Shown in pieces: positions 1,905-23,659 of a stretch of 45,443 nt of DNA. This DNA is from an uncultured Verrucomicrobiales bacterium. GTDB taxonomy: Bacteria; Verrucomicrobiota; Verrucomicrobiia; Verrucomicrobiales; Akkermansiaceae. Below the pieces are notes generated by a model that was given only the letters and a program-made list of their open reading frames with translations, was not told where the DNA came from and did not search any database. Both the position numbers and the translations under genes were made by a program. The stretch's first letter is position 1. The number at the start of each line of letters is the position of its first letter. The stretch is from NCBI GenBank assembly GCA_937128235.1, contig CAKZMG010000337.1:1-45443 (forward strand). Reading direction: 5' to 3'.

Positions 1905-2035
1905 ATTCAGAAAATTGGCTAAGATTGGTTATTTGAGAAGAGAATAGCTTCTGAGCTAAGGGTAAGTTTTTGTTGGTTTGAGTGGGATTAATGGCGGGGA
2001 TTGGGAGGTTTTTGGAGTTGGGACGGTTTGAGGAT

Positions 2036-2058
2036 TAAAAGCTGAGATGGTTCTCAGC
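2036..2058 (-). terminator. rho-independent terminator of tag
   Basis: A perfect 7-bp stem, GCTGAGA (2041-2047) and TCTCAGC (2052-2058), closes a TGGT loop. Read on the minus strand it is followed by four T residues. It lies about 20 bases after the tag stop codon, as expected for an intrinsic terminator. Confidence 0.6.
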
Positions 2059-2076
2059 ACTCAATATTGTCTGTGG

Positions 2077-2637: not shown

Positions 2638-2845
2638 TTTGTGAGTGTAGTGGAAAATGGCGGGTAAATAAAGTGATAATGTGAGGTGAAAAAGGCTTTG
2701 ACCTTCGTGAGTTTCCTGCCTACGTTCCCGCCCCTGCGTGAGCTAGTTATAGGCGAGTTGCGGATGAGTTATTCATCTGGCTTCATTCCACGTGGCGACA
2801 ATCTAGTTAAATTATAAAATTTTAAGAACATCAAGAGATACTGAT

Positions 2846-9042: not shown

Positions 9043-9079
9043 AATCGGCAACACAATGCATCTCATCAGCCTACACCTT

Positions 9080-10507
9080 ATGAAAACACTACTTAGCATT
9101 ATCATTCTGTCGTTATTTCACTCAGCAGTTTCTGCGAGCAGCTATGCCATCGTTGTTAGAGACGCTGTTTATGCTGATGCGGATTGGCAAAAAGTCTGTT
9201 CCGCGCTCCAGAAAAAGCACACTGGTGCTGTGGTTTTAAAATGGAAAGATGACCTAGAGGAGACTCTCCCTGAGCTGAAGAAATTGCATCCTGCTCACAC
9301 ATGCTTCGTTGCTCCGTGTGATCAAGTTGGACCCAAAGTTGTGGCGGAGATTCATCGGCTCACGCGTCAGTATGATGATGACATTTACACGGACACGCGC
9401 TGGGGAATACTCACTGGTTACGATGCCAATGCCGCGCTTGCTACAGCTGAATTTAATCAACCAATCGTAGTGAAAAAAGTAAGCTCTGGCACAGAGATCG
9501 CTATGGAAATGGTGGAAGAAGGCATCGCTTATGATGAACTGGTGAAGAACAAAGTGGTGAAGAAAATGGATGGTGCAAAAGAGCCAGTTCAGAGTGAAGG
9601 TCCCACAGACACTACGCAGTTATTGGCTGAGACTCTAACAGATTGGAAATCTGATCTATTTATCACCTCTGGTCATGGATATGAGCAAGGCTGGCAGATT
9701 GGTTTTAGTTATAAAAATGGCTACTTCCGCTCAAGTGATGGTAAGCTCATGGGAGAAAAAATAGGTGGTGAGAAATTTCCGTTTAGCTCAGATCATCCCC
9801 GCGTTTATCTTCCCATCGGAAATTGCTTAGTAGGATGCATCAAAAACAAAAATGCCTATGCTCTAGCGATGATGAAGAGCGGAGGAGTCAAGGGAATGAT
9901 CGGTTACACCGTGCCAACTTGGTATGGTTACGCAGGCTGGGGAATGTTAGATTATTATGTAGAGCAACCTGGACGCTACACGCTCAATGAAGCATTTCTC
10001 GCGAACCAACACGCGCTGGTTCACCGACTAGAAACATCATTTCCCGGCAGTATGAAGCATCATCCTGATCCAGGTAAGACTGTGCGCCCTGCAAAAGATT
10101 TAGTAGTGAAAAGCCCTGCTGGTCCTGGTCTAACAGATAATGTTAGAGATTTTCCAGGCCTGCTGCATGACCGTGATGTGCTCGCCTACTATGGCGATCC
10201 CGCGCTCAGCGCGCGCATGTCTCCACGCGTCTGTGCTTATGATCAGAAGTTAATCCAAGAAGGCGGTGTCTATACTTTTACTGTGACGGGGAACCGAGGG
10301 GAGAAGTCATTTGCTCCAGTGAATAGGAATGGATCACAGCGAGGAGGTCGCCCTATCTTACAGTTCTTGCCTGCCAGAGTAGCAGAGGTCGAAATCATAG
10401 AAGGAAAAGAACTGCATCCCGTGATCACGGATGATTTCATCCTCATCCCTAACCCAGGAAAGGGTGATAGGCTGACAGTGAAGTTCCGTGTCATTAGTTC
10501 AAAATAA
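9080..10507 (+). CDS. secreted candidate clan CD (gingipain/caspase-like) cysteine peptidase
   Basis: From the ATG at 9080 the protein has 475 residues and a clean signal peptide (MKTLLSIIILSLFHSAVSA). An upstream in-frame ATG at 9056 would spoil it. The middle holds the two blocks expected of a clan CD peptidase in the right order: a hydrophobic strand ending in His-Gly (DLFITSGHG, H199) and, about 50 residues later, a second strand ending in Cys (VYLPIGNC, C249). A Pro-rich region and a possible beta-sandwich tail (about 405-475) follow. This pattern is that of C25-type peptidases. The assignment is inferred from motif order, not full similarity. The gene follows menB by 37 bases but is unlikely to be linked to it in function. 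Confidence 0.55.
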   Translation: MKTLLSIIILSLFHSAVSASSYAIVVRDAVYADADWQKVCSALQKKHTGAVVLKWKDDLEETLPELKKLHPAHTCFVAPCDQVGPKVVAEIHRLTRQYDDDIYTDTRWGILTGYDANAALATAEFNQPIVVKKVSSGTEIAMEMVEEGIAYDELVKNKVVKKMDGAKEPVQSEGPTDTTQLLAETLTDWKSDLFITSGHGYEQGWQIGFSYKNGYFRSSDGKLMGEKIGGEKFPFSSDHPRVYLPIGNCLVGCIKNKNAYALAMMKSGGVKGMIGYTVPTWYGYAGWGMLDYYVEQPGRYTLNEAFLANQHALVHRLETSFPGSMKHHPDPGKTVRPAKDLVVKSPAGPGLTDNVRDFPGLLHDRDVLAYYGDPALSARMSPRVCAYDQKLIQEGGVYTFTVTGNRGEKSFAPVNRNGSQRGGRPILQFLPARVAEVEIIEGKELHPVITDDFILIPNPGKGDRLTVKFRVISSK

Positions 10508-10516
10508 ATCACTTAC

Positions 10517-10545
10517 TTGACCGATTTCTTTTCAGGTTGTAGATG
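10517..10545 (+). promoter_or_regulatory. candidate promoter of the sialate esterase gene
   Basis: TTGACC (10517-10522) is followed 17 bases later by TAGATG (10540-10545), a weak -10. The surrounding block 10512-10536 is 19/25 identical to 8184-8208 before menB. If used, transcription would begin near 10552, the second ATG, which would make the mRNA leaderless. Confidence 0.3.
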
Positions 10546-11997
10546 TTATCTATGACTATTTATTACAAATCCGCAGCCGTTTTTCTCGCAGGAACTTTTT
10601 CTTCATTAGCGGCTATTAGTGTGCCGGCATTCTTCTCAGATGGGATGGTGTTGCAGCGAGAGACTGGAGCTAAGATTTGGGGAACAGGTGATCCTAACAC
10701 GAGTGTGAAAGCGCAGTTCGCAGGTCAAAAACTTACCTCTAAGACTGATGCGGATGGTAAGTGGATGGTAGATTTCAAGGGTCTCAAGATGAGTAAGGCT
10801 GGTGCGGCTCTTCAGGTAAACATCGGTAAAGATACGCTCATCATCAAGGACGTAGTCGTAGGAGAAGTGTGGCTCGCCAGTGGGCAGTCTAACATGGAGT
10901 GGACGATGAGACGCACCTCAGGTGCTGAAGATGCCAAGACTGCTAAGGATGATCTCCTACGAATCTATGTCTCGGGTAACTCGACTGCCGCTAAACCACA
11001 AACAGATTTCAAAGGCAGCTGGAAAAAAACTGACCCAGCAAATACGCCAAACTTCACAGCTGTGGGTTATGAGTTTGCTAAGAATCTACGTGCGAAGTTA
11101 GATGTGCCAGTGGGTGTCATCGAGTGCTCATGGGGCGGTAAGCCGGTGGAGTCATTTGTCAGTGAGGAGGCTCTCAAGGTATTACCAGAAGCGAAGATAG
11201 TGCTAGATAAAAAGGCAAATCAGCTGAAGCGATGGAAGCAAATGTTAGAGAAAAATCCCAAGGCTAATCCTAAGCAAAATCCCGAGCTGAACCCGGGGAT
11301 GCATTCTACGATTTATAATGCGATGATCGCACCGCTTGCAGGATACGGAGCGCGTGGAGCGATCTGGTATCAGGGTGAGTCAAATGCGAGGGGAGGAACA
11401 GCAACCCATTATGGCGAACTCCTAAAGTGTTTGATCGATGACTGGAGAAAGAAGTGGGGGAGTGATTTATCATTTTATTATGTCCAGTTAGCGAATTTCG
11501 ATGGCAAAAATAATTTTCCTCACTGGGTGATGGTGCAGGATGAAATGCGTCGTCTGTTAGATGAGTCTCCAAAAGTTGGTATGGCAGTGATCAATGACAT
11601 TGGAGCTGCAAAAAATATTCACCCTAAGAATAAAAAAGATGTGGGAGCGAGACTAGCACGCTGGGCACTGAGTAAAGATTATGGTGTGAAGGATATGGTG
11701 ATTTCGGGACCACTTTACAAGAGCCATGAGATAAAAGGGGCAAACGTAGAGGTAAGTTTTTCTCATGCTGAGGGGCTAAAATCCCGTGCAGGTAATCCGC
11801 TAGGAGGATTCGAGGTCAGTGATGAATCAGGTAAATGGCACCCAGCAGAAGCAGTGGTCAAAGGTGATAAGATCATCGTGACGAGCAAAGCTGCGGCTCA
11901 TCCAAGCAACGTTCGTTATGCTTGGAAAAGTAATCCAACCAAAGCAAACCTAGTGAATAAAGCTGGTCTTCCGACTAGCTGTTTTGTGGGGAAGTAG
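10543..11997 (+). CDS. secreted sialate O-acetylesterase (SASA family)
   Basis: A hydrolase that removes O-acetyl groups from sialic acids or other acetylated glycans outside the cytoplasm. It has 484 residues with a signal peptide (about 1-24; ATG codons at 10543 and 10552 are both possible). The SGNH-type nucleophile is S116 in ASGQSNMEW. WYQGESN (275-281) and the His of NIHPKNKKDVG (H360) complete the usual family pattern. A beta-rich N-terminal domain (25-105) and C-terminal domain (390-484) flank it. Such enzymes are common in Verrucomicrobia that degrade mucins or algal glycans. No sialidase or glycan-uptake gene is adjacent. One copy of each dispersed word lies in the gene in addition to a second copy of the longer one. 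Confidence 0.88.
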   Translation: MLSMTIYYKSAAVFLAGTFSSLAAISVPAFFSDGMVLQRETGAKIWGTGDPNTSVKAQFAGQKLTSKTDADGKWMVDFKGLKMSKAGAALQVNIGKDTLIIKDVVVGEVWLASGQSNMEWTMRRTSGAEDAKTAKDDLLRIYVSGNSTAAKPQTDFKGSWKKTDPANTPNFTAVGYEFAKNLRAKLDVPVGVIECSWGGKPVESFVSEEALKVLPEAKIVLDKKANQLKRWKQMLEKNPKANPKQNPELNPGMHSTIYNAMIAPLAGYGARGAIWYQGESNARGGTATHYGELLKCLIDDWRKKWGSDLSFYYVQLANFDGKNNFPHWVMVQDEMRRLLDESPKVGMAVINDIGAAKNIHPKNKKDVGARLARWALSKDYGVKDMVISGPLYKSHEIKGANVEVSFSHAEGLKSRAGNPLGGFEVSDESGKWHPAEAVVKGDKIIVTSKAAAHPSNVRYAWKSNPTKANLVNKAGLPTSCFVGK

Positions 11998-12003
11998 GTT
12001 TTC

Positions 12004-12660
12004 TTATGACGTAATGAGTTTTCCATCAGCGATGTTGATGACTTGGTCAGCTTGATTGGCGTCTGCGTCTGCGTGGGTGACCATGATGACGGTGTTGCCT
12101 TGTTTGGCGTAGTCTTTGAAAAGGTTGATGAGAATCTCAGTGTTTTTGTTGTCGAGGTTGCCGGTGGGCTCGTCTGCTAGGAGGAGTTTTGGCTGGGAAA
12201 TGATGGCGCGTGCGAAGGCTACGCGTTGGCACTCGCCCGCGCTTAGTTTGGCGGGGTGGTGGCTGATGCGGTGCCCTAGTTCTAGCTGGTCGATGAGTGA
12301 TTTTGCTTCAGAGGCGTAGTGGTCTAGGGGTAAGTTTTTTGCGACGCTGGGAAGAGTGATGTTCTCTAACACATTGAGATAGGGGAGTAGGTGGAAGTTC
12401 TGAAAGATCATGCCGATGTTCTCTGCTCTGAGTACAGATCTCTCTGCTGGTGAAATTTCGTAGAGTGAGGTGCCGTCTATTTTCACACTGCCAGAGGTGG
12501 GTCTGACGAGTCCGGAGAGGGTGCTGAGTAAGGTGCTTTTACCTGAGCCGCTGGGACCTTGGAGGGCGATGAATTTTCCGGCTTCTATTTCTAGGGAAAC
12601 GTCATCGAGCGCGGTGACATTTCCTGGGTAAATCATGCTGAGGTTCTGGATGCTAATCAT
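12004..12660 (-). CDS. ABC transporter ATP-binding protein, LolD/MacB type
   Basis: A 218-residue ATPase of the MacB/LolD/FtsE group that powers extrusion or mechanotransmission by FtsX-like permeases. Walker A is GPSGSGKST at 35-43, the signature is LSAGE at 139-143 (Ala for the usual second Gly), Walker B is LLLADE at 159-164, and the D-loop begins GNLD. The switch His is in MVTHAD. Its start overlaps the end of the permease gene by 8 bases, so the two are coupled. The gene is last in a minus-strand cluster with two propeller proteins and an anchored envelope protein, which are the likeliest functional partners. Confidence 0.9.
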   Translation of the reverse strand: MISIQNLSMIYPGNVTALDDVSLEIEAGKFIALQGPSGSGKSTLLSTLSGLVRPTSGSVKIDGTSLYEISPAERSVLRAENIGMIFQNFHLLPYLNVLENITLPSVAKNLPLDHYASEAKSLIDQLELGHRISHHPAKLSAGECQRVAFARAIISQPKLLLADEPTGNLDNKNTEILINLFKDYAKQGNTVIMVTHADADANQADQVINIADGKLITS

Positions 12661-13948
12661 GTCTGAGGGTATTTAAAGGTTGCTGGCTGGTGACGCTGAG
12701 TGCGGGTAGCCATGTGGCGGTGAGTGCGATGAGCGGTGGCGCAAACGCCAAGATGATGAGCATTTGCTGATCTAGTTTAGTAAATGTGAGGCTAACGATA
12801 ATGGTGATAACAGCGGCGATGACTCCGATGATGAGCGCGCGGATGAGGAAGAGTGAGAGTACCTTGCTGGTCTTGGTGCCGAGTGCGCGGAGGATGCCTA
12901 CTTCTTCTTTGCGGTGTTTTACATTGAGAATGCAGAGAACTGTTAGAGTGATGAAGGCGATGATGAGGAGCAGTGGGATGAGGAATGTATTGAGTGATTC
13001 GAGGCTCTTTCTGGACTCCGCTCTGGTGGTCTGGATGGTCTGCATTTTCTCATTTCCCTGGGTGATGATTTGCGCCCGCATGGTGTCTGCGCGGGATGAA
13101 GTTTTGACTCTGGTTTCTGCGCGGGCGAGGGCTTTTGATCCTACTTCGATGATCTGGACATCTGGGATGATGGCTTCTAGTTCCTTGCGGATGGTGCCCA
13201 CGCGGTCTGCGCTGGCGCAGTTGCAGCCTAGGCATTTGATGGAGGAAATTTTGCCTTCTAGGTTGTAGAGCTTCTGCATTTCTGCGAGGTGGATCCAGGC
13301 GGTGCCATCGTCACGGAAGTCTCGGCTGGGGTACGTTTTTGCGACTTTGTAGCTAGTGCCGTTGATGGTGACGTCATCGCCCACTTTGATACCAAGTGGC
13401 TTGTGCAGGTCATAGCCTAGGAATACGGTGCCGGGTTCGAGCGGCTGCATGATGGGCTTCATGTGATTGCGATGTGCCATGGGGACTTGCCCGGCTACTC
13501 CTATGAGCATGATGTTGCGGTTCTGCTCTTTCCATTCTGTGCGGCGGGCGAGCTGCGGTAGGAGGTGATTGATGGTGACTACTTTGCTGTCTGCGAGCTT
13601 ATTTGCGTAGGCTTGGGGTAAGGTTTTGATGGAGTAGCCACGCTCTTTGATGGCTTCGATGGGTTCTTGATTTGAAAAAAGATAGACATTGAATCCGAGT
13701 CCTTTCATGGATTTTCGGATGTCGTTTTCTAGGTTTTTGAGAACGGTTTCTGTCTCGGTGTTGTGCTTGGTGAGTTGTTGTTTGACCTCGGTCTCATGGT
13801 TCTGAAGTGAGGCTGTGGTCTCTGCATCAAATTTATCTAACAGGCTGATGGAGTAAACGCTAAGGCAGAGAGTGAGCGCAATGGCGATGATGCTGAGGAT
13901 GAAGTTTCCTCTGCGGTGTTTGATTTCTCTCAGAATAAGATGGAGCAT
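12653..13948 (-). CDS. FtsX/MacB-like ABC transporter permease
   Basis: A 431-residue permease with the type VII ABC layout: one N-terminal helix (about 15-37), a large extracytoplasmic domain (40-320) and three C-terminal helices (about 321-342, 365-389, 395-418). The cytoplasmic coupling region RKEEVGILRALGTKTSKV (about 347-363) is the FtsX-family signature. The extracytoplasmic part includes a MacB_PCD-like core, a Gln/Thr/Glu-rich probable coiled coil (45-80) and an unusual cysteine cluster, C239-x2-C242-x-C244. The gene overlaps the ATPase gene. Upstream lies a protein with a comparable cysteine cluster, so metal or disulfide chemistry may be involved. Confidence 0.85.
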   Translation of the reverse strand: MLHLILREIKHRRGNFILSIIAIALTLCLSVYSISLLDKFDAETTASLQNHETEVKQQLTKHNTETETVLKNLENDIRKSMKGLGFNVYLFSNQEPIEAIKERGYSIKTLPQAYANKLADSKVVTINHLLPQLARRTEWKEQNRNIMLIGVAGQVPMAHRNHMKPIMQPLEPGTVFLGYDLHKPLGIKVGDDVTINGTSYKVAKTYPSRDFRDDGTAWIHLAEMQKLYNLEGKISSIKCLGCNCASADRVGTIRKELEAIIPDVQIIEVGSKALARAETRVKTSSRADTMRAQIITQGNEKMQTIQTTRAESRKSLESLNTFLIPLLLIIAFITLTVLCILNVKHRKEEVGILRALGTKTSKVLSLFLIRALIIGVIAAVITIIVSLTFTKLDQQMLIILAFAPPLIALTATWLPALSVTSQQPLNTLRHD

Positions 13949-13986
13949 GCTTTGGATTGAAGATTTTGGATTGAAGGTGGGGGATT

Positions 13987-15105
13987 TTAGCGGAGTTGAG
14001 ATTTTTTGTAGATGAGGAATGAGCCGATGATGATGCCTATTCCTACCAGACCTGCGAAGATCTTAGCGGAGAATATGAGAGCATCTATTTTTTGTCTTTC
14101 TTGTTGTGGGAGAGAGTGAACGATCTCAGTGTCTGTCGTTGCAATGGGCTTGGCAGTGATGAAGTCTCCAGCTCCAGTGAGCTCTGGGATGGCTTTTTCG
14201 ATGATGGCGGAGGAGTTGATCAGGTGCTCGTCCCAGTTGCTGTTGATAAGGAGGTCAAAGCCTGGGTTCTCGTCTTTCACGCTGCAGGCGCAGGCGTTGC
14301 AGAGGTATTGGCATTTCTCCATGATGAGTGCCTCGGTGAGCTTACTGGCTGGCATAAGAGCTAGACAGCGACCTCTGCCAAAGACGGGCGCGATGAGTGA
14401 TTTGCTTGTCTCGGGGAGTTGGTCGATGGTGTTGCCATTGAGTAGAATGCGGATGAAGTCTTGCTCGGCAGGATCTGCGGGGTCTAGGGTGACGATGCTG
14501 AAGGCGATTTTGAGTGGGATTTTTGAGCGCAGGACGTCATCGAAGTCGATGTCGCCTTTGGCTTGTGCTTCTGCTACTTCGTCTGGATTGATGACGCCTT
14601 CTGGGAGCTCAATGGTTTCTTGAGCTTTGGTGAGTGTGGACTCTAACAGTTTTCTGGTGCGCTCGTCTGTGGCTTTATTTCCTGAGAGGAGATGGATGAA
14701 TACAGCGGAGTCGCCAGCTAAGAGTTTTTCTTTGATTGCGGTGCGAACGGGAGAGTCTGTTAGAGACTTCCAGGATTTCTCAGTGGTTTTCTGGATGAGA
14801 ACTGGTTGCTCAAGATTGACTGAGTCTGGAGCAGTGAGGATGTGAGATGGATATTCAGTGACTTGATCTAGCCCTACGATAGACCATTGCTGTGCATCTG
14901 TTAGATTTTTTGCATCAAAGTATTCTGTGCTAATGTTGGCGTGTTTCTGCTCAGGTAGTTTGACGAAGGAGTCTTTGTGGAGGACTTGGAGGCGGTATTT
15001 GTCTGCCTGCCATCGTTCAAGGGCGTAGCGGAACACGGGCACCTGACACGCGAGTGTGCTGGCGGTGGTGGCTGCTAGAAACCAGATTGTTAGAGATTTC
15101 CACAT
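13987..15105 (-). CDS. membrane-anchored envelope protein with VPVFRYALERW motif
   Basis: A 372-residue protein with an N-terminal signal that ends at or just before C20 (possibly a lipoprotein, although the lipobox is imperfect), followed at once by CQVPVFRYALERW. I associate this opening with uncharacterised planctomycete and verrucomicrobial proteins encoded beside ABC transporters. A helix near 343-366 with a short basic tail anchors the C-terminus, so most of the protein should be outside the cytoplasm. A cysteine cluster (C265, C269, C272, C274; also C247) lies before the anchor and could bind metal. The gene sits 38 bases upstream of the permease and 45 bases downstream of a propeller gene, all on one strand. 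Function unknown. Confidence 0.65.
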   Translation of the reverse strand: MWKSLTIWFLAATTASTLACQVPVFRYALERWQADKYRLQVLHKDSFVKLPEQKHANISTEYFDAKNLTDAQQWSIVGLDQVTEYPSHILTAPDSVNLEQPVLIQKTTEKSWKSLTDSPVRTAIKEKLLAGDSAVFIHLLSGNKATDERTRKLLESTLTKAQETIELPEGVINPDEVAEAQAKGDIDFDDVLRSKIPLKIAFSIVTLDPADPAEQDFIRILLNGNTIDQLPETSKSLIAPVFGRGRCLALMPASKLTEALIMEKCQYLCNACACSVKDENPGFDLLINSNWDEHLINSSAIIEKAIPELTGAGDFITAKPIATTDTEIVHSLPQQERQKIDALIFSAKIFAGLVGIGIIIGSFLIYKKSQLR

Positions 15106-15150
15106 GGTTGATTAGGTGTTGATGGACAGAGACAGGATGTCTCTGGCACT

Positions 15151-16542
15151 TTATTTAGTGAAGCTGATGATTTCTCCTTTGTTGGTGGAGACGATGAGGT
15201 GTCCGTTTGAGACGGAGAGTCCGTGGGCGGTGCCGTCGATTTTTGTTTCCCAGAGCTTTTTGCCATCAGTGGCATCATAGATGATTATTTTTTGATGGTA
15301 GCCGCAGATGAGGTGATTGCCAGCAACAATAAGCTCGGCTGGGGAGGGGGCGTTGATTTCCCAGAGCCAGCTGTTTTTGATGTCTTCTTTACATTGAGCG
15401 AGTTCAGCTTTGAGTTCATCTAGTTTGGCTTTTTGTGCTGTGTTTGGTTTTTTGATGATGACGCTGAGCTGGGCTTTACGGTCTGAGTTTTTGGAGAATT
15501 GTGCGTGGTTGACGGCTTTTAGTTTGTTGCCACTTTGTAGGAAAATTTTGTTTTTGTGAGCGACTACTCGGTTGGTGTTATTGAATGCTGCTACGGATTT
15601 TCCGGCTGCATCGGTGAGTCCGATGTGGTCATCGGCTATTTTCTGGCTGGGTGGTCCAGCGATGAAGTAGTTGTCTTCTGTGAGGAGGCAGAAGGTGCCG
15701 CCAGCGTGCCCTATGGTGCCAATTTTCTTACCTGTCTTGGCATCAAATTTTAGTGCAGCTGCTCGTCCTTGTGGGATGAAGAGGTTGTCTCCGTCTGTGA
15801 GGATGGCACCTTGGAGCGTGGCACCAGTGGAGTTTTGATTATAGCCGCCAAGTGCACGTTCTATGCCTTCTGCTTTGGTTTGGTATCTGGCTCTGCCGTT
15901 GCTCTGGTTCACAGAAACGAGGTAGGAGTCCTTCCAGGGGAGGAGTGAGCCTGCGAAGATGGCTTGGTTGCCAATCAGGGTGACTCCGGTGCGGATGGGG
16001 TGGGTGGAGATGGTTTTTCCGTTGTTGAAGATGAGCCTTTCTGGGTTTTCTTTACTACTTTTTGGGATGGATGAGGTTTTCCAGATGAGCTTGCCGTCTG
16101 TGGAATTTAGCGCGTAGGCGAAGCCATCGTCTGAGCCGAAGAAGAGCTTATCACCTGCGATGCTGGGTGGGATGCGGACTGCGCTGTTGGTGAAGAAGGT
16201 CCAGGTTTCTTCACCTGAGGCGAGGTCTATACAGTGGACGGCGTTGTCTGCTGATGAGCCGTAGAAGACTTTATTGTTAGAGATGGTGGTGTAGTGGCAG
16301 GGGTCAAAATTTCTCATGGACTGGAGACCAGCATTGGCTGCGTATGCGTCCCATTTGGCTGGGCCAGTCCAAGCTTGCTGAGGTGCTCCGCCTTGGTGTG
16401 ACCAGGATTTCTTGAGTGGGAGTGTGAGGGTCTGGTCTGTGGAGCCACTGCGGCGATTGTCTGCACGGTAGGTGGGCCAGTCTGCTAGGGTGAGGGAGAC
16501 TGTGGAGATGAGAATGCTGAGTGCGGTGATGGTGTGTTTCAT
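15151..16542 (-). CDS. secreted PQQ-like beta-propeller protein
   Basis: A 463-residue protein with a signal peptide (MKHTITALSILISTVSLTLA) directly followed by DWPTYRADNRRSG, the usual opening of PVC quinoprotein-like propellers. Repeated blades of the type NNKVFYGSSADNAVHCIDLASGEETW run from about 85 to 460. A charged insert (about 365-392) interrupts the propeller late on. Blades of this type fold as in PQQ dehydrogenases or BamB. Cofactor binding cannot be judged from the sequence, and a structural or scaffold role is as likely as an enzyme. The gene is in line with the anchored protein and ABC transporter downstream. Confidence 0.8.
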   Translation of the reverse strand: MKHTITALSILISTVSLTLADWPTYRADNRRSGSTDQTLTLPLKKSWSHQGGAPQQAWTGPAKWDAYAANAGLQSMRNFDPCHYTTISNNKVFYGSSADNAVHCIDLASGEETWTFFTNSAVRIPPSIAGDKLFFGSDDGFAYALNSTDGKLIWKTSSIPKSSKENPERLIFNNGKTISTHPIRTGVTLIGNQAIFAGSLLPWKDSYLVSVNQSNGRARYQTKAEGIERALGGYNQNSTGATLQGAILTDGDNLFIPQGRAAALKFDAKTGKKIGTIGHAGGTFCLLTEDNYFIAGPPSQKIADDHIGLTDAAGKSVAAFNNTNRVVAHKNKIFLQSGNKLKAVNHAQFSKNSDRKAQLSVIIKKPNTAQKAKLDELKAELAQCKEDIKNSWLWEINAPSPAELIVAGNHLICGYHQKIIIYDATDGKKLWETKIDGTAHGLSVSNGHLIVSTNKGEIISFTK

Positions 16543-16591
16543 GGATGCTAAAAATTTTGACTTTAGAAAGGCTAAATGAGATTATGTAGTC

Positions 16592-16726
16592 ATGGATACG
16601 GTTAAGAAATTAGATGAAGCCCCTCTTGCTAAGACGGTGTATGTTGGTGATTTTCTGATGTTGGACGTTTCTTTGGATCGTGAAGTGGTGCGTGATGTGA
16701 TACGTGAGGAGCGTGATAGTAGATAA
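16592..16726 (+). CDS. possible small protein, 44 residues
   Basis: An ATG-started frame of 44 codons (MDTVKKLDEAPL..., ending ...REERDSR) lies alone on the plus strand in the gap between two minus-strand propeller genes and fills most of it. It is charged, with no membrane segment. The composition looks protein-like (amphipathic, Val/Asp/Arg-rich), but no family is recognised and the ribosome site is weak. It stops 10 bases short of the end of the convergent 912-residue gene. It could be a real small protein or a chance frame. Confidence 0.4.
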   Translation: MDTVKKLDEAPLAKTVYVGDFLMLDVSLDREVVRDVIREERDSR

Positions 16727-16736
16727 GAAAATGAGG

Positions 16737-19475
16737 TTATTTTTTAATGGGTGCTAGACCTAGTGAGGTTTCCATCCAGCCGCCGCATGAGCAGCCAGCA
16801 CCGCCTTCTGGGATGAGGAGCATGCCGTTGGAGGGGATGAAGCTTAGCCAGCAGCTGGGACGGAGGCGTTTCCAGCCAGTGGGCTTTTTCTCATCTACTC
16901 CCCAGATGGTGATCATGCCACCACCGCCGCGGTAGAAGATGCTGTCTGTGGTGCCTACTGCGGCTGAGCAGGCGGCGCGGGGCCCGTAGTTATAGCCGAT
17001 GGGTCTGCCGGTTTTGATTTTGACGCCTGTGGGGTCACAGTAGATTTTGTCTCTGATGATGACTGGGTGCTGGATGTGTGCTCCGTGGTGGTTTGCTCGC
17101 CATGGAGTTTCGGCTTCCCATTTGAGTTTTCCAGTTTTGGCATCAAAGTAGTGGTAGGTGTATAAGCCTTTGTTGGTGCCATGCACTGCTTGTGAGAGGA
17201 CGGGGAGGAAGGCGTCTTTGGTAGCGACTCCGTAGCCAACTTGGACGCTGCTTTTTGTGGAGTCAACGTATTTGAGTGCTGGGAATGGCTGGATCCAGCG
17301 GGGTCTGCCAGTTTCTAGGTTGAGGCAGACTGCTTTTAGATTTTCTGTCCAGAGTTGATTACTGGAGATTTTTCCGTTTGATTCTTCTTTGAGGTTGGGG
17401 CTCTGGTTTTCTAGGAAGTAGATATTTTTTCCTGAGATGGTGATGGTGGAGTTGATGATGACTCCTTTTCCGTATGCCCATTTGCCTTTGCCTGTGGTTT
17501 TATCGTAGGAGAAAATGTTGTCACTGATGACTTGGGCGATGGCGTCTCGGTTGCCTGCACCATCGAACCATGCTTTGCTGGTCCAGATGTTGGTGAATGC
17601 GGCGTTGGCTTTGACGCTGGAGCCGATGAGGGATTTGTCTGTGACTGCGATGTATCCCCAGTCGTGCGTGCCGCGGACTGCGGAGGTGAGCATGAAGGCT
17701 TCTTCTTGTTTGCCGTTAGCGGCGTTTATTTTCCATGCTCGGTCTTTGATGGCGACGTAGAGGTGGTCTTTGTCAGCGCACCAGTTTGAGCAATCGCGAG
17801 GGATGTTTACGCGGCGGAGGTCTGGGATTTCCATGCCCCAGAGGACTTGTCCGTTGTAGGAATCTAGGGCGACTAGGCGATCGTGCCCTTGGTGGAAGAG
17901 TCTGCCATTGGCTGCGAGTGGGGCAGGCATGCGGGGCTGGCGGTCGATACCGAAGTCACCGCCTGGTCTGCCTAGCCATTGGACTTGGAGGTCGGTAGTG
18001 GCGGTTGCGCCGCCGAGGGATTCACCTACGTTTGAGGTGTTAGCGGCGTTTCCGTATTGGTGTCCCCAGTCGTTGGTTTCTTTGACGGTTTTTGTTTTCT
18101 TGGAAACGGTGGTGCCATTGATGTTGACGAGGTGGCTGTTAGGGCTGAGGAGCTTGTGAGCGAGTGTGGTGGAGCAGGGGAGTTTAGGGTGCTCGGTGAC
18201 GATGATGTTGGCTGTGTTATGTGCGAGTGGGATGTTGTTCAATTTCTCGACTGTGAGGATGCTGATGCGTGAGCCATAGACTCCAGTGGCGTAGAAATTT
18301 TTACGGATCTTTTGGATGCGTTCTTGGTTGGATTCTATGCAGATGACTTTGTAGTTTGTCTGGCGTGCTATCTGGTAGGCGAGCTTGCCGTCTCTGAGCC
18401 CGATGACGAGGCAGATGCCGGCTCTCTGGGGATCAAGGGCGGCAATTTTCTTAGCGAGTGCGTAGGTTTCTGGAGATTTCAGAGCAGGTGCTTCTGGAGC
18501 TTCTGGGACGCTCATGTTCATGGTGGTGGTGAACTCGTAGATAGGTGAAAATTTATTTTTGCCGTCAACTTTTCCGCCGAGGCGGTAGTAGTAGGTGGTG
18601 GCTGGCTCTAGCCCGGTGATGCGGATGGAGTGCTGGGTTCCGCTTTCTGATGAGGTGGCGATTTCACCGAAATTCTTAGTGAGTCCGTAGGCGATGGCTC
18701 CTTTTCCTGGCTGCGTGGCTTCCCATGAGACGAGTGCTTCTGATGGTCCTGTGAATGAGACTTTGGGGCGGACGGCGAACTCGTAGCGGGTTTGCCCAGC
18801 GAGTTTTTTTATGGCTGCAGCGGTGAGTGCGGTGTCGTGAATTTTGATATTTCGGATGCGACCTTCCATGGGGAAGAATTCGTCTTTGTCCTTGTAGGCA
18901 CCGATGACGAAGGGAGTGGGGGCGGTGTCGTTTAGTATTTTTCCGGGGAGGTTGATGGATTTTGAGAGAATGCCATCGGTGTAGAGTTTGAGGGTTTTTC
19001 CATCGTAAACGGAGATGATGTGTGCCCACTGACCTGGTGAGAAGGATCTGTTGTGGGCGGCGGTTTGGAGTGCTCCTCCATTGGAGGCTTTTACGCTGTA
19101 GTTGGAGTTGGTGTAGCCGAGTAGCCAGCCGCGTTCGTGGTTGCCGTTGTCTTGGGAATAGCCGATGATTCCTCCCCATTTGTTTGGCTGGTCTATGCGG
19201 ATGATGGCTTCTACAGAGAATGTTTCAGTAGAGATGCTTTTTGCGTGTTTTTCATCGATGAGGATGTGCTGATCGTTTTCGAAAATGAGTAGCCCGTCTT
19301 TGTCAAATTTGGCTGGCTTCTGGAGTTTGCCTTCCGCGCCTTGTTTTGATTGTAGTGTGTCTGCTTGGATGTGCTTTTTATCTATGCTCCACTCAAAGAG
19401 GACTTTTGCTTGGCTCATCATGGTTAGACATGAGGATAGGCATAGGAAGAAGGAGATAGACCTTAGGATATTCAT
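16737..19475 (-). CDS. secreted LamG / FnIII-like / methyltransferase-like / PQQ-propeller fusion protein
   Basis: A 912-residue protein with a signal peptide ending near residue 23. In order it has a LamG (concanavalin-like) domain (about 50-220, with WGGIIGYSQD and GRIRNIKIHDTAL), a fibronectin-III or purple-acid-phosphatase N-like domain (235-318, with GLEPATTYYYRLGG), a region with the fold pattern of a SAM methyltransferase (about 335-450: VIGLRDGKLAYQIA, then ICIESNQERI) and a PQQ/WD-type propeller (about 470-905). The tail holds a C895-S-C897 motif. A methyltransferase-like domain in an exported protein is surprising and may be a non-catalytic scaffold. The gene heads the minus-strand cluster ending in an ABC transporter and is transcribed divergently from the ThiS-like gene. 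Confidence 0.75.
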   Translation of the reverse strand: MNILRSISFFLCLSSCLTMMSQAKVLFEWSIDKKHIQADTLQSKQGAEGKLQKPAKFDKDGLLIFENDQHILIDEKHAKSISTETFSVEAIIRIDQPNKWGGIIGYSQDNGNHERGWLLGYTNSNYSVKASNGGALQTAAHNRSFSPGQWAHIISVYDGKTLKLYTDGILSKSINLPGKILNDTAPTPFVIGAYKDKDEFFPMEGRIRNIKIHDTALTAAAIKKLAGQTRYEFAVRPKVSFTGPSEALVSWEATQPGKGAIAYGLTKNFGEIATSSESGTQHSIRITGLEPATTYYYRLGGKVDGKNKFSPIYEFTTTMNMSVPEAPEAPALKSPETYALAKKIAALDPQRAGICLVIGLRDGKLAYQIARQTNYKVICIESNQERIQKIRKNFYATGVYGSRISILTVEKLNNIPLAHNTANIIVTEHPKLPCSTTLAHKLLSPNSHLVNINGTTVSKKTKTVKETNDWGHQYGNAANTSNVGESLGGATATTDLQVQWLGRPGGDFGIDRQPRMPAPLAANGRLFHQGHDRLVALDSYNGQVLWGMEIPDLRRVNIPRDCSNWCADKDHLYVAIKDRAWKINAANGKQEEAFMLTSAVRGTHDWGYIAVTDKSLIGSSVKANAAFTNIWTSKAWFDGAGNRDAIAQVISDNIFSYDKTTGKGKWAYGKGVIINSTITISGKNIYFLENQSPNLKEESNGKISSNQLWTENLKAVCLNLETGRPRWIQPFPALKYVDSTKSSVQVGYGVATKDAFLPVLSQAVHGTNKGLYTYHYFDAKTGKLKWEAETPWRANHHGAHIQHPVIIRDKIYCDPTGVKIKTGRPIGYNYGPRAACSAAVGTTDSIFYRGGGGMITIWGVDEKKPTGWKRLRPSCWLSFIPSNGMLLIPEGGAGCSCGGWMETSLGLAPIKK

Positions 19476-19610: not shown

Positions 19611-19880
19611 ATGAAGATTATTTACCAAGGACAGATAGGGGCTGTGGCTGGGCTGACGAGTGAAGAGCGAGATGTTAGTTCGGACACGACTGTTGCTGAG
19701 CTTATTGCTGAGATTGCAAAAGGTAAGCCAGCTGAGGTGGCGCGGTTTCTAGTGGATAGTGAGGGGAATGTGAGCAAGAGTTTGCTCGTGGTGGTGGATG
19801 ATGATCATGTGCTGGATTATTCTGTTAGAGTGGGCGATGCTCGGGAACTTTTACTGATGCCTCCAATGGCTGGTGGGTAA
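19611..19880 (+). CDS. ThiS/MoaD-family sulfur-carrier-like protein
   Basis: An 89-residue ubiquitin-fold carrier. The chain ends in ...PPMAGG, and the C-terminal Gly-Gly is the residue pair that an E1-like enzyme adenylates and that then carries sulfur as a thiocarboxylate. The DxTVAELIAEI block near 25-36 and VRVGDARELLLMPP near the end match MoaD/ThiS. The next gene, 31 bases downstream, encodes an E1-like protein, followed by a molybdate-type transporter. This points to molybdenum or tungsten cofactor sulfuration rather than thiamine, by inference from context. Confidence 0.82.
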   Translation: MKIIYQGQIGAVAGLTSEERDVSSDTTVAELIAEIAKGKPAEVARFLVDSEGNVSKSLLVVVDDDHVLDYSVRVGDARELLLMPPMAGG

Positions 19881-19911
19881 GCTGGTGGATAATTTTAATT
19901 AAAATTTTACG

Positions 19912-20646
19912 ATGCTCTCAGATAAAGATAAGGCTTATTATGCGTGGCAGCTCAATGTCCCAGGCTTCGGTGTGGAGGGACAGGAGAAGCTGCGTAATGC
20001 GACTGCGCTGGTCTCGCGTGTGGGTGGATTAGGTGGACCGCTGGCATTTTCTCTGGCGGCAGCGGGGTTTGGGAAAATCATTTTAGCGCATAGTGGTGAG
20101 CTGCGGGAGGATGACTTGAATAGGCAGATTTTGATGAAGCATGATGGCCTGGGGGGCGCGCGTCATGAGCAAGCGGCGGAGACTTTGCGCAGGTTTAATC
20201 CGGATGTGGATGTGGAGAGTGTGGGTGAGAATATTTCTGAGGGAAATGTGGTGGGCCTGGTGGAGCAGGCGGATGTTGTGTTTTCTTGTGCGCCATTGTT
20301 TGAGGAGAGATTGCTCATGAATCGTGAGGCGGTGAGGCAGAAGAAATTTTTAGTGGATGGTGCGATGTTTAATATGGAAGGACAGGTTCTGGCGGTGAAG
20401 GGTGGCGAGACTGCTTGTCTGGCGTGTCTGGTGGATGAGCCACCTGAGCACTGGCAGAGGAGATTTCCTGTGATAGGGGCATTGTCTGCGATGATGGCTC
20501 AGATTGCGGCTTTAGAAGGAATAAAAATGCTGACTGGTCTGGGAGAATCTCAGGTGGATAAGTTGATCCATGTGGATGCTTTGACGATGAATATGCGGAA
20601 AATCAAGGTGCGCAGAAACCCTCATTGCAAACATTGTAAAGTATGA
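19912..20646 (+). CDS. divergent MoeB/ThiF/HesA-family E1-like protein
   Basis: A 244-residue member of the family that adenylates the C-terminal Gly of MoaD/ThiS carriers. The Rossmann glycine loop (RVGGLGGP, 36-43), the LNRQ motif (69-72) and the two Zn-binding CxxC pairs (C169/C172, C239/C242) are present. Two ATP-site elements are not: the usual DxD before LNRQ reads HSG here, and the usual DCTDN reads SCAPL (125-129), losing both aspartates. It may be a divergent E1 using other residues or a non-catalytic relative. It overlaps the next gene by 4 bases (ATGA), tying it to the transporter. Confidence 0.85.
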   Translation: MLSDKDKAYYAWQLNVPGFGVEGQEKLRNATALVSRVGGLGGPLAFSLAAAGFGKIILAHSGELREDDLNRQILMKHDGLGGARHEQAAETLRRFNPDVDVESVGENISEGNVVGLVEQADVVFSCAPLFEERLLMNREAVRQKKFLVDGAMFNMEGQVLAVKGGETACLACLVDEPPEHWQRRFPVIGALSAMMAQIAALEGIKMLTGLGESQVDKLIHVDALTMNMRKIKVRRNPHCKHCKV

Positions 20647-22148
20647 AGAAGCTAGGGATATTATTTGGTTTGCTGAGCGTGCTGGGCTTGTGTTTATATT
20701 TCGTTTTACGCGAAGAAGGTGACGATGCTGGATATGTCAGTGAGCTTGAGATGCACTGCGCAGCGGGGCTACAAAAGCCGGTGGAGGAGATAGCGCGGCA
20801 GTATGAAGAGGAGTTTGGGGTGAAAATAAAGCTGAACTTCGGTGGCTCTGGGCAGTTGTTTGCGAAGCTAGAAGTGGCGGGTGGTGATGTTTATTTACCT
20901 GCTGATGTGAGCTATATTGAAAAGGCTAGGGATGAAAATTTAGTAGTAGAGTCTATCCCTGTGAGTAGGTTGACTGCGGGAATAATTGTGGCGAAGGGTA
21001 ACCCTAAGAACATTAGGTCACTGAAAGATCTGACTCGTGATGATGTGCGGGTAGTGCTTGCGGAGCGCTCGGCTGCGGTGGGGAAATTTACTCACAAGGT
21101 GCTGGAGGAGGCTGCTGTGTTAGAGGCGATTGATGGGGGGGTGATTTCTAAGATGGGTACGGTGAATGAGGTTGCACTACAGGTAGATATTGGTGCTGCT
21201 GATGCTGGTATTGTGTGGGATGCGTTGATGCCGCATTTTAAGCAGAGTGAATTTGTGAGTGTGCCAGAGTTTGAAAAGCGACAGAAGCGCGCTACGGTGG
21301 GAGTCTTAAAAAGTAGTAAGAATGGAACGGCTGCGCTTAAATTTGTGCGCTATCTTACTGCGAAAAATAAGGGGGCAGAGGTTTTTAAGAAGCATGGATT
21401 TGATGTTCAGCCAGGGGACTTGTGGGCAGAGAAACCTAAAGTGGTGTTTTTCTCTGGGTCGATGTTGCGTCCGGCGATACAAGATCAGTTGGCTATTTTT
21501 GAGGAGCGTGAGGGGTGCGAGATCACGGTGAAGTATGCGGGCTGTGGTGAGCTAGTGGCACTGATGCGCGCTGGTGATATGCCAGATTATTATGCTTCAT
21601 GTGATATGGAATTCATGAAGATGGTGCAGGATAAATTTAGGAAATCAGAAGTCGTTTCAGGGAATAGGATCGTTATACTGGTGTCGAAGGGGAATCCTCG
21701 AAAGATTAAAACATTGAGTGATCTCACTCAGAGTGATTTAAAACTGGGGATTGCTGATAGGACGCGTTCTGCGTTAGGCACGCTGACTTATAAATTGTTA
21801 GAAGATGAGAGGCTGTTAGAAGGTATCGAGAAGAGTGGTAATCTTCAGGTGCTAGTGGCGAAGGGGGATGACCTTGTGAATCAAATGCAGACTGGTGCTT
21901 TGGATGTGGCATTGCTCTACCGGAGTAATGCGATGGCTAGTGCGGGTATTATGAAGCATTGTGAAATTATTGAGATCGAGAATAAAAAATCTTTTGCTAC
22001 GCAGCCATTTGCGATTGCTAAGAAAACTGAACATGCTCAGTTGTTGGAGCGGCTTGATAATTTCCTGACGAATAAAGAGGGAAAAGAATCCTTCATGAGG
22101 TATGGTTTTTTCTGGTATAAGGATGCTGTTAACAAGACAGATGAATAA
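20643..22148 (+). CDS. tandem two-domain ModA-like substrate-binding protein
   Basis: A 501-residue protein with an N-terminal hydrophobic signal or anchor (about 4-22) and two complete periplasmic-binding domains of the molybdate/tungstate ModA type, about 36-255 and 268-490. The repeats share blocks: KGNPKNIRSLKDLT (118-131) and KGNPRKIKTLSDLT (349-362), and the ligand-loop patterns NFGGSGQL (65-72) and YAGCGELV (298-305). A normal ModA has one domain of about 230 residues. Two fused binding domains could give two sites per transporter or two specificities. The oxyanion is inferred from family resemblance and from the carrier/E1 genes; sulfate or another anion cannot be excluded. It overlaps the permease gene by 8 bases. 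Confidence 0.82.
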   Translation: MKKLGILFGLLSVLGLCLYFVLREEGDDAGYVSELEMHCAAGLQKPVEEIARQYEEEFGVKIKLNFGGSGQLFAKLEVAGGDVYLPADVSYIEKARDENLVVESIPVSRLTAGIIVAKGNPKNIRSLKDLTRDDVRVVLAERSAAVGKFTHKVLEEAAVLEAIDGGVISKMGTVNEVALQVDIGAADAGIVWDALMPHFKQSEFVSVPEFEKRQKRATVGVLKSSKNGTAALKFVRYLTAKNKGAEVFKKHGFDVQPGDLWAEKPKVVFFSGSMLRPAIQDQLAIFEEREGCEITVKYAGCGELVALMRAGDMPDYYASCDMEFMKMVQDKFRKSEVVSGNRIVILVSKGNPRKIKTLSDLTQSDLKLGIADRTRSALGTLTYKLLEDERLLEGIEKSGNLQVLVAKGDDLVNQMQTGALDVALLYRSNAMASAGIMKHCEIIEIENKKSFATQPFAIAKKTEHAQLLERLDNFLTNKEGKESFMRYGFFWYKDAVNKTDE

Positions 22149-23025
22149 CTCTAACAGAAACAAACATCATATAGAAGGGAAGGGCGGCTTGTTTGGTGCT
22201 TGGCTCGGTACTTCGTTGTTTGTGTATCTCGCTTTGATTGTTCTACTCATTGTAGCAGATGTCTGGTATGTGCTTGCGGCTTGCTGGGATAGTCCAGATG
22301 GAGTGACTGTAATGTTAGATTGGCCCAATTTGTGGGATTCAGTGAAGCTCACATTTCTGAGCTGTACGATTAGTGCTATTTTATCCGTAATCATAGCGGT
22401 TCCGATTGGTTACCTGCTCTCAAGGTATCGTTTTTTTGGCAGGTCGGTGATCGATGCGATGCTAGATATTCCTGTGGTTTTGCCTCCATTGGTGATTGGT
22501 CTGAGTTTATTGATTCTGTTTAATAATTTTCCGCCTAAGATTCTAGGCTGGGGGGCGGAATCGCTGGATGGATATCTGAGTGATTTTGGGATGAGGGTAA
22601 CGAATACTAAGTTGGCGGTGATTTTAGCGCAGTTCACTGTGGCAGCGGCTTTTGCGATCAGGACGGTGAAGGCTACGTTTGATCAGATAGATCCTAGAAG
22701 TGAGCAGGTGGCGATGACGATAGGAGCATCAAGAGGGCGAGCATTTTTTGATGTGGTGATGCCGCAGTCCTACAGAGGAATAGTAGCGGCAGGGACATTG
22801 GCTTGGGCAAGAGCACTGGGAGAGTTTGGTCCTATACTCGTGTTTGCAGGGGCTACTAAAGGGAAGACTGAGGTGCTTTCGACTTCGGTTTATTTGGAGA
22901 TTAACACCGGAAATATTAATGGAGCGGTGATCATTTCGTTGTTGATGATAGCATTGGCTATGATCACTATTTTAACTGTTAGATATTGTACAGAGAGAGG
23001 AGCGGGGTATGACTTACATCGATAA
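22141..23025 (+). CDS. modB: molybdate/tungstate-type ABC transporter permease
   Basis: A 294-residue integral membrane protein of the binding-protein-dependent permease family. It has about six helices, with a long first hydrophobic segment near 20-45. The ABC-coupling EAA loop is visible as QVAMTIGASRGRAFFDVVMPQS (roughly 199-220). The block IDAMLDIPVVLPPLVIGLSL resembles ModB/CysT/WtpB. The ATG at 22141, overlapping the binding-protein stop, was chosen over an upstream in-frame ATG at 22102, which would overlap more and give an unlikely N-terminus. A TCTAACAGA word falls right at the gene start. Confidence 0.85.
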   Translation: MNNSNRNKHHIEGKGGLFGAWLGTSLFVYLALIVLLIVADVWYVLAACWDSPDGVTVMLDWPNLWDSVKLTFLSCTISAILSVIIAVPIGYLLSRYRFFGRSVIDAMLDIPVVLPPLVIGLSLLILFNNFPPKILGWGAESLDGYLSDFGMRVTNTKLAVILAQFTVAAAFAIRTVKATFDQIDPRSEQVAMTIGASRGRAFFDVVMPQSYRGIVAAGTLAWARALGEFGPILVFAGATKGKTEVLSTSVYLEINTGNINGAVIISLLMIALAMITILTVRYCTERGAGYDLHR

Positions 23026-23659
23026 TATTTCTGTTAGAGCGGGTGAGTTTATTCTGGCTGATGTTAGTTTTGAGATTCAAAGAGGTAAGTGTATAGCCCT
23101 AATGGGGAAAAGCGGGTCTGGCAAGACGACTCTGATGGAGGCAATCTGTGGCTTGAGGGAAGTGATGAGCGGGAGCATAAAGATAGGTGATGTGGATTGC
23201 ACTAATGCCGCACCTAAGGATAGGATGGTGGGTTTGGTGCCGCAGGATAATGTTTTATTTAGCACCATGAGCGTGCGGGAGCATCTGGCTTATGGGCCAC
23301 TTTTAAGGAAGTGGAAACGAGCTGATATAGATGCTCGTGTGGAAGAAGTGGCAGATGAGTTAGGGATAAAAGATCTTCTGGATCGGCAGCCGCGAGGACT
23401 TTCTGGCGGGGAGGCGAAACGTGTAGCAATAGGGCGTGCTATTGCGGCTAAGCCAGCCTTGCTCTGTCTAGATGAAAGCTTTACTGGGCTAGATGAAGAA
23501 ACACTGCAAGAGGTGATGACGGTGGTGAAGGCAACTATTCAAAGAGAGGAAATAAGCACACTACTCATAACTCACCAGATATCCGAAGCCAAGTTACTGG
23601 GGGATGTGATTTATCAGATTAAAGAAAGTGGGAGGGTAGAAAAATTGATTCTTGATTAG
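23009..23659 (+). CDS. modC: molybdate/tungstate-type ABC transporter ATP-binding protein
   Basis: A 216-residue ABC ATPase: Walker A GKSGSGKTT (33-41), Q-loop in LVPQDN, signature LSGGE (131-135), Walker B LLCLDE (151-156) and the switch His in LLITHQ. It lacks the C-terminal TOBE/Mop domain of classical ModC, so ligand-dependent regulation through that domain is absent, as in some tungstate (TupC) and other short ATPases. It overlaps the permease gene by 17 bases and has a GA-rich ribosome site in front. It is the last gene of the operon, ending two bases before the convergent gene. The substrate is inferred from the neighbours. Confidence 0.85.
   Translation: MTYIDNISVRAGEFILADVSFEIQRGKCIALMGKSGSGKTTLMEAICGLREVMSGSIKIGDVDCTNAAPKDRMVGLVPQDNVLFSTMSVREHLAYGPLLRKWKRADIDARVEEVADELGIKDLLDRQPRGLSGGEAKRVAIGRAIAAKPALLCLDESFTGLDEETLQEVMTVVKATIQREEISTLLITHQISEAKLLGDVIYQIKESGRVEKLILD

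Follow-up and report, generated by a model that had tools for sequence, protein, structure and literature searches.

A co-inherited gene cluster in Verrucomicrobia and its tie to exported propeller proteins with a C-x-C signature

The gene cluster treated here lies on a contig of an uncultured Verrucomicrobiales bacterium (Akkermansiaceae; assembly GCA_937128235.1, contig CAKZMG010000337.1, positions 1-45,443), and this whole stretch of 45,443 nucleotides is called the window below. The cluster joins an anchored protein (ANCH), an FtsX-type permease (PERM) and its ATPase (ABC) to a short propeller (PQQ) and a propeller fusion of 912 amino acids (FUS), and across the phylum its genes are inherited together with long propellers that carry the signature C-x(16-20)-C-x-C (CxC propellers). 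Read from the promoter side, the order on the minus strand is FUS, PQQ, ANCH, PERM and ABC, with 194 bases between FUS and PQQ, 45 between PQQ and ANCH, 38 between ANCH and PERM, and an overlap of 8 bases between PERM and ABC. A divergent set on the plus strand at 19611-23659 begins 136 bases upstream of FUS and encodes ThiS, ThiF, a tandem ModA-type protein (ModA2), ModB and ModC. All five minus-strand open reading frames of the initial annotation were confirmed at their coordinates, and its family calls for the transporter and the propellers were recovered with Pfam (ABC_tran, FtsX, and PQQ_2 in both propellers), but its bounds of 12004-19475 cut the unit in half; the minus-strand five are one half, and the plus-strand set, which it had left unconnected, is the other. 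The arrangement is identical in a close relative, an uncultured Rubritalea metagenome-assembled genome (L038). The features are as follows.

12004-12660, minus strand: ABC, ATPase of the LolD/FtsE type, 218 amino acids (PF00005, 124 bits)
12653-13948, minus strand: PERM, FtsX-type permease, 431 amino acids (PF02687, 40.8 bits)
13217-13219 and 13223-13225, minus strand: codons of the conserved C244 and C242 in the extracytoplasmic domain of PERM
13987-15105, minus strand: ANCH, anchored protein, 372 amino acids, with two predicted thioredoxin-like domains
13993-14106, minus strand: predicted C-terminal transmembrane anchor of ANCH, residues 334-371 (helix in the AlphaFold2 model)
14284-14286, 14290-14292 and 15046-15048, minus strand: codons of C274, C272 and C20 of ANCH
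15151-16542, minus strand: PQQ, exported short beta-propeller, 463 amino acids (PF13360, PQQ_2, 70 bits)
16737-19475, minus strand: FUS, exported, 912 amino acids, with LamG, fn3/PAP-N, a weak methyltransferase-like Rossmann part and a CxC propeller (Pfam)
16743-17978, minus strand: C-terminal CxC propeller domain of FUS (17-sequence alignment A6)
16785-16787, 16791-16793, 16851-16853 and 16968-16970, minus strand: codons of C897, C895, C875 and C836 of the FUS propeller
19611-19880, plus strand: ThiS/MoaD-like sulfur carrier, 89 amino acids, C-terminus PPMAGG (PF02597, 30.3 bits, cut-off 22.5)
19912-20646, plus strand: MoeB/ThiF-like E1, 244 amino acids (PF00899, 162 bits)
20643-22148, plus strand: ModA2, membrane-anchored tandem ModA-type binding protein, 501 amino acids (PF13531, 256 bits; TIGR01256, 126 bits)
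20757-20759, 21543-21545 and 21600-21602, plus strand: codons of C39, C301 and C320 of ModA2
22102-23025, plus strand: ModB-type permease, 307 amino acids (TIGR01581, 192 bits, cut-off 210), adjoining ModA2 in relatives
23009-23659, plus strand: ModC/WtpC-type ATPase, 216 amino acids (PF00005; NF040840, 182 bits, below cut-off)

The gene set is patchily distributed and yet co-inherited across Verrucomicrobia. Whole-genome profile searches of 383 Verrucomicrobiota genomes, in which few candidates were scored per genome, found ANCH in 52, scattered among many families, and in 13 of 58 near relatives; an earlier contig-wide search had given only three relatives because its query was a single sequence. 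PERM was found in 38 of the 383 genomes and full-length ModA2 in 30, in every case in genomes with ANCH (hypergeometric 4e-41 and 7e-31), and the same is true for all 19 genomes matched by the FUS profile. These p-values are guides, as they ignore shared ancestry and the small number of candidates scored. The conserved linkage that the initial annotation expected is thus found within Verrucomicrobiota, and the signatures of ANCH and of the CxC propellers are presumably common in Planctomycetota. No ANCH relative was present among the viral contigs and plasmids searched for a phage or plasmid origin. The same partners recur around about 57 ANCH loci, and within 10 kb of the 60 ANCH open reading frames there are 39 with PERM, 28 with full-length ModA2, 21 with a CxC propeller and 17 with ThiF. 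ABC adjoins PERM in most relatives, and ModA2 accompanies ANCH even from separate contigs (G392, G071, G170, G199 and G061). Three loci (L075, L076 and L079) have the whole series ModA-ModB-ModC-ANCH-PERM-ABC-ThiS-ThiF on one strand, while the order is FUS-PQQ-ANCH-ThiS-ThiF-ModA-ModB-ModC in L026 and ANCH-PERM-ABC-ThiS-ThiF-ModA-ModB, followed by a ModC-like ATPase, in L029. Gene order and occurrence show the cluster to be a single conserved unit. Apart from these partners, what recurs beside ANCH are general genes (sulfatases, dehydrogenases), and in three related genomes a rhodanese-like lipoprotein.

The linkage between ANCH and the CxC propellers is strong; the cofactor discussed further on is what we infer. 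A profile made from alignment A6 found CxC propellers in 33 of 60 genomes with ANCH and in none of 80 without it. A wider profile, A7, matched 18 of the 27 ANCH genomes missed by A6 and all eight that were re-tested, and its five matches in 70 genomes without ANCH were weak and partial (E >= 9e-12), ended before the C-x-C and lacked the signature. Overall, CxC propellers are found in 51/60 genomes with ANCH and 0/70 without (Fisher 3e-27). The signature is present in 29 of the 30 ANCH loci matched, and distant long propellers beside ANCH share it (YTRTCTC, HNCACY, SICTCD, GCKCEV, GCTCSY). There are six genera with both states (g1, g7, g23, g88, g98 and g101), and in these the CxC propeller occurs only in members with ANCH, which answers much of the worry about shared ancestry. 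FUS is the one CxC propeller of the window genome. The initial annotation saw FUS as part of a putative exported five-protein complex with mechanical coupling to ATP hydrolysis, but since long CxC propellers are found only where ANCH occurs, their distribution suggests that FUS is better seen as a client. The short PQQ propeller has no conserved cysteine. In other genomes PQQ and the CxC propeller are fused in open reading frames of 1000-1800 amino acids (e.g. L031, L111, L112 and L126), which supports that the two act together.

Pfam divides FUS into Laminin_G_3, Pur_ac_phosph_N and PQQ_2, no family in Pfam or NCBIfam covers the CxC propellers as such, and a comparison of FUS with the sequences of solved structures gave only weak LamG-type and other matches. 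The cysteines C836, C875, C895 and C897 are conserved in 10/10 sequences and invariant in the 17 sequences of alignment A6, where H797 (in HxxHxxHP) is nearly invariant. The AlphaFold2 model of the FUS propeller (pLDDT 81.6 overall) resembles tetrathionate hydrolase (Foldseek E 1.5e-12) and BamB (VIA Z 23). The fold is like that of these two proteins and of the 8-bladed PQQ alcohol dehydrogenases, but the identity is 11-16%, the four-Cys/His set is invariant and the equivalog cut-offs are missed. Nitrous oxide reductase was not among the best Foldseek and VIA matches, which does not exclude such a kinship. A quinoprotein role of PQQ was considered and set aside on its score, which is far below the cut-off for PQQ-dependent alcohol dehydrogenases (TIGR03075, 30.6 against 480 bits, and no TIGR03075 match for FUS), and PQQ also misses the BamB cut-off of TIGR03300 (55.2 against 285 bits).

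ANCH has no family match in Pfam or NCBIfam, and its profile matched no sequence of a solved structure. The AlphaFold2 model (pLDDT 89.6) has alternating alpha and beta elements and a C-terminal helix at residues 334-371, Foldseek ranks calsequestrin and fragments of protein disulfide isomerase (PDI) highest, with a PDI a-b pair giving the best E of 1.8e-3 and no match falling below 0.001, and residues 118-272 superpose on thioredoxins in VIA (Z 8.9, 100 residues, 2.4 A). ANCH is therefore predicted to be a tandem thioredoxin-like protein with a C-terminal anchor. The cysteine motifs quoted in the initial annotation are all present, but conservation singles out a part of them: in CQYLCNACAC of ANCH, C272 (59/59 sequences) and C274 (58/59) are kept and C265 (19/59) and C269 (24/59) are not; in CLGCNC of PERM, C242 (37/38) and C244 (35/38) are kept and C239 is not; and in FUS, for which GCSCGG had been quoted, C836, C875, C895 and C897 are kept. 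To these comes C20 of ANCH (58/59), which had not been mentioned and which stands at a helix start in a C-x-x-P context. The window genome has a second ANCH copy, 39% identical, on contig C75 (L021:5420-6637), without an adjacent transporter partner; one of its neighbours is a KefC-like antiporter, the other a PQQ propeller that lacks the C-x-C. At L040:9944-13522 an open reading frame of 1192 amino acids combines the N-terminal part of ANCH with an unrelated extension without Pfam match.

These cysteines can be read as a thiol-disulfide relay, in which ANCH would be a PDI-like oxidase or isomerase with a C-x-C of its own, PERM-ABC and ModA2 its redox partners, and the clients proteins in need of correct disulfides. 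The predicted tandem thioredoxin-like domains as in PDI, the position of C20 and the presence of conserved cysteines in all extracytoplasmic partners are what such a relay would have. The CxxC active site of thioredoxins and PDI is absent from ANCH, which instead has C20-x-x-P and C272-x-C274, the latter in a C-terminal C-x-C-x-x-K-x-x-N-P-G, and a transmembrane anchor, all of which separate it from PDI and calsequestrin. One would hardly expect a general folding helper to be bound to one client family, to an importer with a tandem ModA and to a sulfur carrier, and the three cysteines of ANCH, the three of ModA2 and the four of the client fit ligands at least equally well. We regard the relay as unlikely, and as the first of the alternatives to keep in mind.

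The transporter belongs to the superfamily of FtsX, LolCDE and MacB, with an FtsX fold and a LolD/FtsE-like ATPase, but misses the cut-offs of all equivalogs: ABC scores 205 against 308 bits for LolD and 206.6 against 264.9 for FtsE, and PERM 38.5 against 362 bits for LolC/E. The MacB test failed as well, the ATPase and the permease being separate genes that score 181 and 25 against 966 bits. PERM-ABC further differs from these transporters in its conserved extracytoplasmic C-x-C, and neither LolA/B nor MacA was seen beside it. In L094, L097 and L104 the PERM genes are doubled in tandem, which suggests a heterodimeric permease. The superfamily raises the question of a sorting or surface-export machine, where ANCH as an adaptor would read the C-x-C as a tag and the transporter would move the propellers through the envelope. 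In FUS the C-x-C is near the C-terminus, a possible place for a sorting tag, but in many clients it is internal, hundreds of residues before the end; it lies within the propeller together with a conserved upstream cysteine and histidine, and the ModA2-ModB-ModC importer and ThiS/ThiF would be left without a role. This explanation is very unlikely in our opinion.

ModA2 consists of two ModA domains that share one N-terminal anchor, and it passes the equivalog cut-off of TIGR01256 (126.2 against 62.5 bits); ModB and ModC belong to the same family of molybdate (ModABC) and tungstate (Tup, Wtp) importers. Ordinary ModA binds its oxyanion via serine and main-chain groups. In ModA2, C39 (25/26 sequences), C301 (26/26) and C320 (26/26) are conserved, and alignment puts cysteines at pocket positions where ordinary ModA, and likewise the sister domain, has serine or alanine. 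Domain 1 keeps the GGS[GT] loop and has glycine at the Ser12-like position, with C39 immediately preceding the residue that corresponds to Ser12 of ModA, and domain 2 has a cysteine at the loop serine and a second one in addition; in a self-alignment GGSGTL of domain 1 becomes NGCGIL in domain 2, and AAD becomes ACD. From this alignment, thiols are placed in the oxyanion-binding pockets of ModA2. The tandem form on one anchor, the invariant pocket cysteines, the restriction to genomes with ANCH and the occurrence in some genomes without MoaA all set ModA2 apart from the known importers. The clusters L089, L092 and L104 encode ModA as separate single-domain proteins rather than in tandem, and in some of them CHVGG replaces CAAG. 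Directly after ModA2, three loci (L034:6460-6951, L037:10287-10748 and L073:7257-7853) encode a small lipoprotein, named rhodanese-like from its sequence, hinting at periplasmic sulfur transfer.

The neighbouring ThiS/ThiF pair resembles MoaD-MoeB, and also AorD/AorE, in being a ubiquitin-like carrier with a GG end and an adjacent E1. The carrier has the ThiS fold, with the C-terminal GG in 11/11 aligned sequences, and misses the MoaD equivalog cut-off (23 against 66 bits), as the E1 misses that of MoeB TIGR02355 (130.7 against 376.6 bits). Asp130 and Lys86 are catalytically important residues of MoeB. Aligned with MoeB (1jw9) and relatives, the E1 of the window has Pro for Asp130, Arg for Lys86 and CAPLFEER for DCTDN, and the CAPLFEER and Arg replacements recur in nearly all cluster members, so that the E1 of this type, from its residues, is possibly retooled or inactive. 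A second, canonical MoeZ-like E1 is present in some clusters (L083, L096, L098, L100 and L102), ahead of ANCH in L096, L098 and L102.

A ModA-type importer beside MoaD- and MoeB-like proteins would by itself suggest a molybdenum or tungsten system, where ModA2-ModB-ModC would import molybdate or tungstate, ThiS/ThiF would take the parts of MoaD/MoeB, and delivery of the pterin cofactor to an exported enzyme would fall to the remaining proteins. Besides the ModA2 score and the likeness of the pair to MoaD/MoeB, the distribution of ThiS/ThiF points this way, as they are found near ANCH or ModA2 in 19 of 31 genomes with MoaA and in none of 14 without (6e-5, with contig ends limiting the count), and MoaD-like genes go with the operon of a tungsten aldehyde oxidoreductase (PMC6365974). 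A tungsten aldehyde oxidoreductase cluster, prompted by the combination of MoaD, E1 and ModABC, was rejected: AFOR_C (PF01314) had no match in the window genome, while 5 of 14 controls were matched. MoaA is present in the window genome, but it was undetected in 14 genomes with ANCH, and four of these (G085, G194, G262 and G392, 95-97% complete) carry full-length ModA2. Because of these four genomes, ordinary molybdopterin supply cannot, as far as gene content tells, be the core role of the system. The replaced Asp130 and Lys86 of the E1 and the invariant cysteines, atypical for ModA pockets, speak against it as well, and no riboswitch, for molybdenum cofactor or other, was found at the Rfam gathering threshold in the window or in five relatives. 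We consider the molybdopterin explanation quite unlikely. Since ThiS/ThiF track MoaA, this part may nevertheless touch the pterin pathway, and this tracking is the main observation left unexplained.

The C-x-C motifs in several extracytoplasmic components, together with the conserved histidine and cysteines of the propeller, could also serve the homeostasis of copper or another soft metal, with Cu(I) or a similar toxic ion held for storage or efflux and the propellers acting as metal sinks. One client and one machine in the window genome is unlike a sink, and genes like CopA, CusA and CsoR were not noticed in the neighbourhoods, although no systematic search for them was made. We find this explanation highly improbable.

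Some further genes stand near these clusters. Sulfatase genes are found near ANCH at nine loci (including L023, L027, L029, L037, L040, L076 and L104), but they are abundant genome-wide and may be background. Close to the ANCH cluster of L036 there is an RHS-repeat protein with a C-terminal Ntox16 domain (1831-3696). In the window, an exported protein of 483 amino acids without Pfam match (9056-10507) lies beside a sialate O-acetylesterase-like gene (10543-11997), and the ModC gene is followed immediately, on the other strand, by a protein of 271 amino acids without family match (23662-24477).

The closest known parallel in way of working, not in family membership, is the maturation of N2O reductase (NosZ), an exported propeller enzyme that is equipped by NosDFY and NosL, with a proposed supply of sulfide (PMC6530538). 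There, too, an accessory ABC transporter and an anchored cysteine-containing chaperone, for copper, serve an exported beta-propeller metalloenzyme. The present cluster differs in its FtsX-type permease, its tandem thioredoxin-like anchored protein, its tandem ModA importer and ThiS/ThiF, and its client is a propeller of the PQQ/BamB type; homologues of NosDFY and NosL were not searched for. We tentatively read the cluster as a dedicated accessory system for the CxC propellers, which most likely loads a thiolate-ligated cofactor, a soft metal either alone or together with inorganic sulfide, and we give this reading somewhat less than an even chance. It is plausible from the sequences that a metal or redox cofactor is involved, as the initial annotation had proposed, and this is the class we favour. 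ModA2-ModB-ModC would capture and import a thiophilic ion or oxyanion, and ThiS/ThiF, where present, would give sulfur in the cytoplasm. PERM-ABC would then pass the loaded species outward or power its release with ATP, ANCH would receive it on C20, C272 and C274 on the outside of the inner membrane, and from there the exported propeller would take it up at its four-Cys/His site. Cargo, direction and the order of these steps are all our inference. In a more specific form, the system would build a pterin-free sulfur-ligated metal centre (sulfide and cysteine thiolates around Mo, W or Cu, for example) and insert it into the exported propellers, by import through the cysteine-bearing tandem ModA, sulfur in part from ThiS/ThiF and FtsX-type export to the anchored tandem-thioredoxin chaperone. 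We think that this form is rather unlikely.

Several observations weigh against a dedicated cofactor-loading system. Six of the 60 ANCH open reading frames have none of PERM, ModA2, ThiF or a CxC propeller within 10 kb, some ANCH loci have no PERM-ABC or ModA2 nearby, and ThiS/ThiF accompany only a part of the ANCH set. In the model of the FUS propeller, the last approximately 40 residues, and with them C875, C895 and C897, have a pLDDT below 60. The metal, the sulfur species and the enzymatic activity are not assignable from sequence, and the cysteines could be disulfides rather than ligands. Nine of the 60 genomes with ANCH had no CxC-propeller match in the profile searches, and because of these, clients other than CxC propellers may exist; in one of the nine (G071), a CxC propeller does stand next to ThiF and ModA2, and in another (G320) ANCH is broken.

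What is known in this system are the folds of its parts, and accessory genes for an exported enzyme as a kind of system. What is new, as far as databases and open literature reach, are the way the system is composed, its client family and its scheme of cysteines; it is less likely that the system is also new as a kind. The initial annotation knew of no described system with this composition, and no description of the gene set was found in the openly licensed literature searched.

Verrucomicrobia have many very large PQQ-like propellers that are annotated by fold alone. A sharp subset of these, marked by C-x(16-20)-C-x-C, is now tied to a specific accessory machine across the phylum, and the roles of three of its parts, an FtsX-type transporter, a cysteine-bearing relative of ModA and an anchored thioredoxin-like orphan, become a concrete question. 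If the cofactor reading is true, there would be a new extracytoplasmic metal-sulfur centre and a route for its assembly, and if that centre is pterin-free, the CxC propellers would represent extracytoplasmic metalloenzymes of a new class. Should the cysteines form disulfides only, it would still be a client-specific folding system. The unnamed propellers thereby become a testable system of enzyme and maturation.

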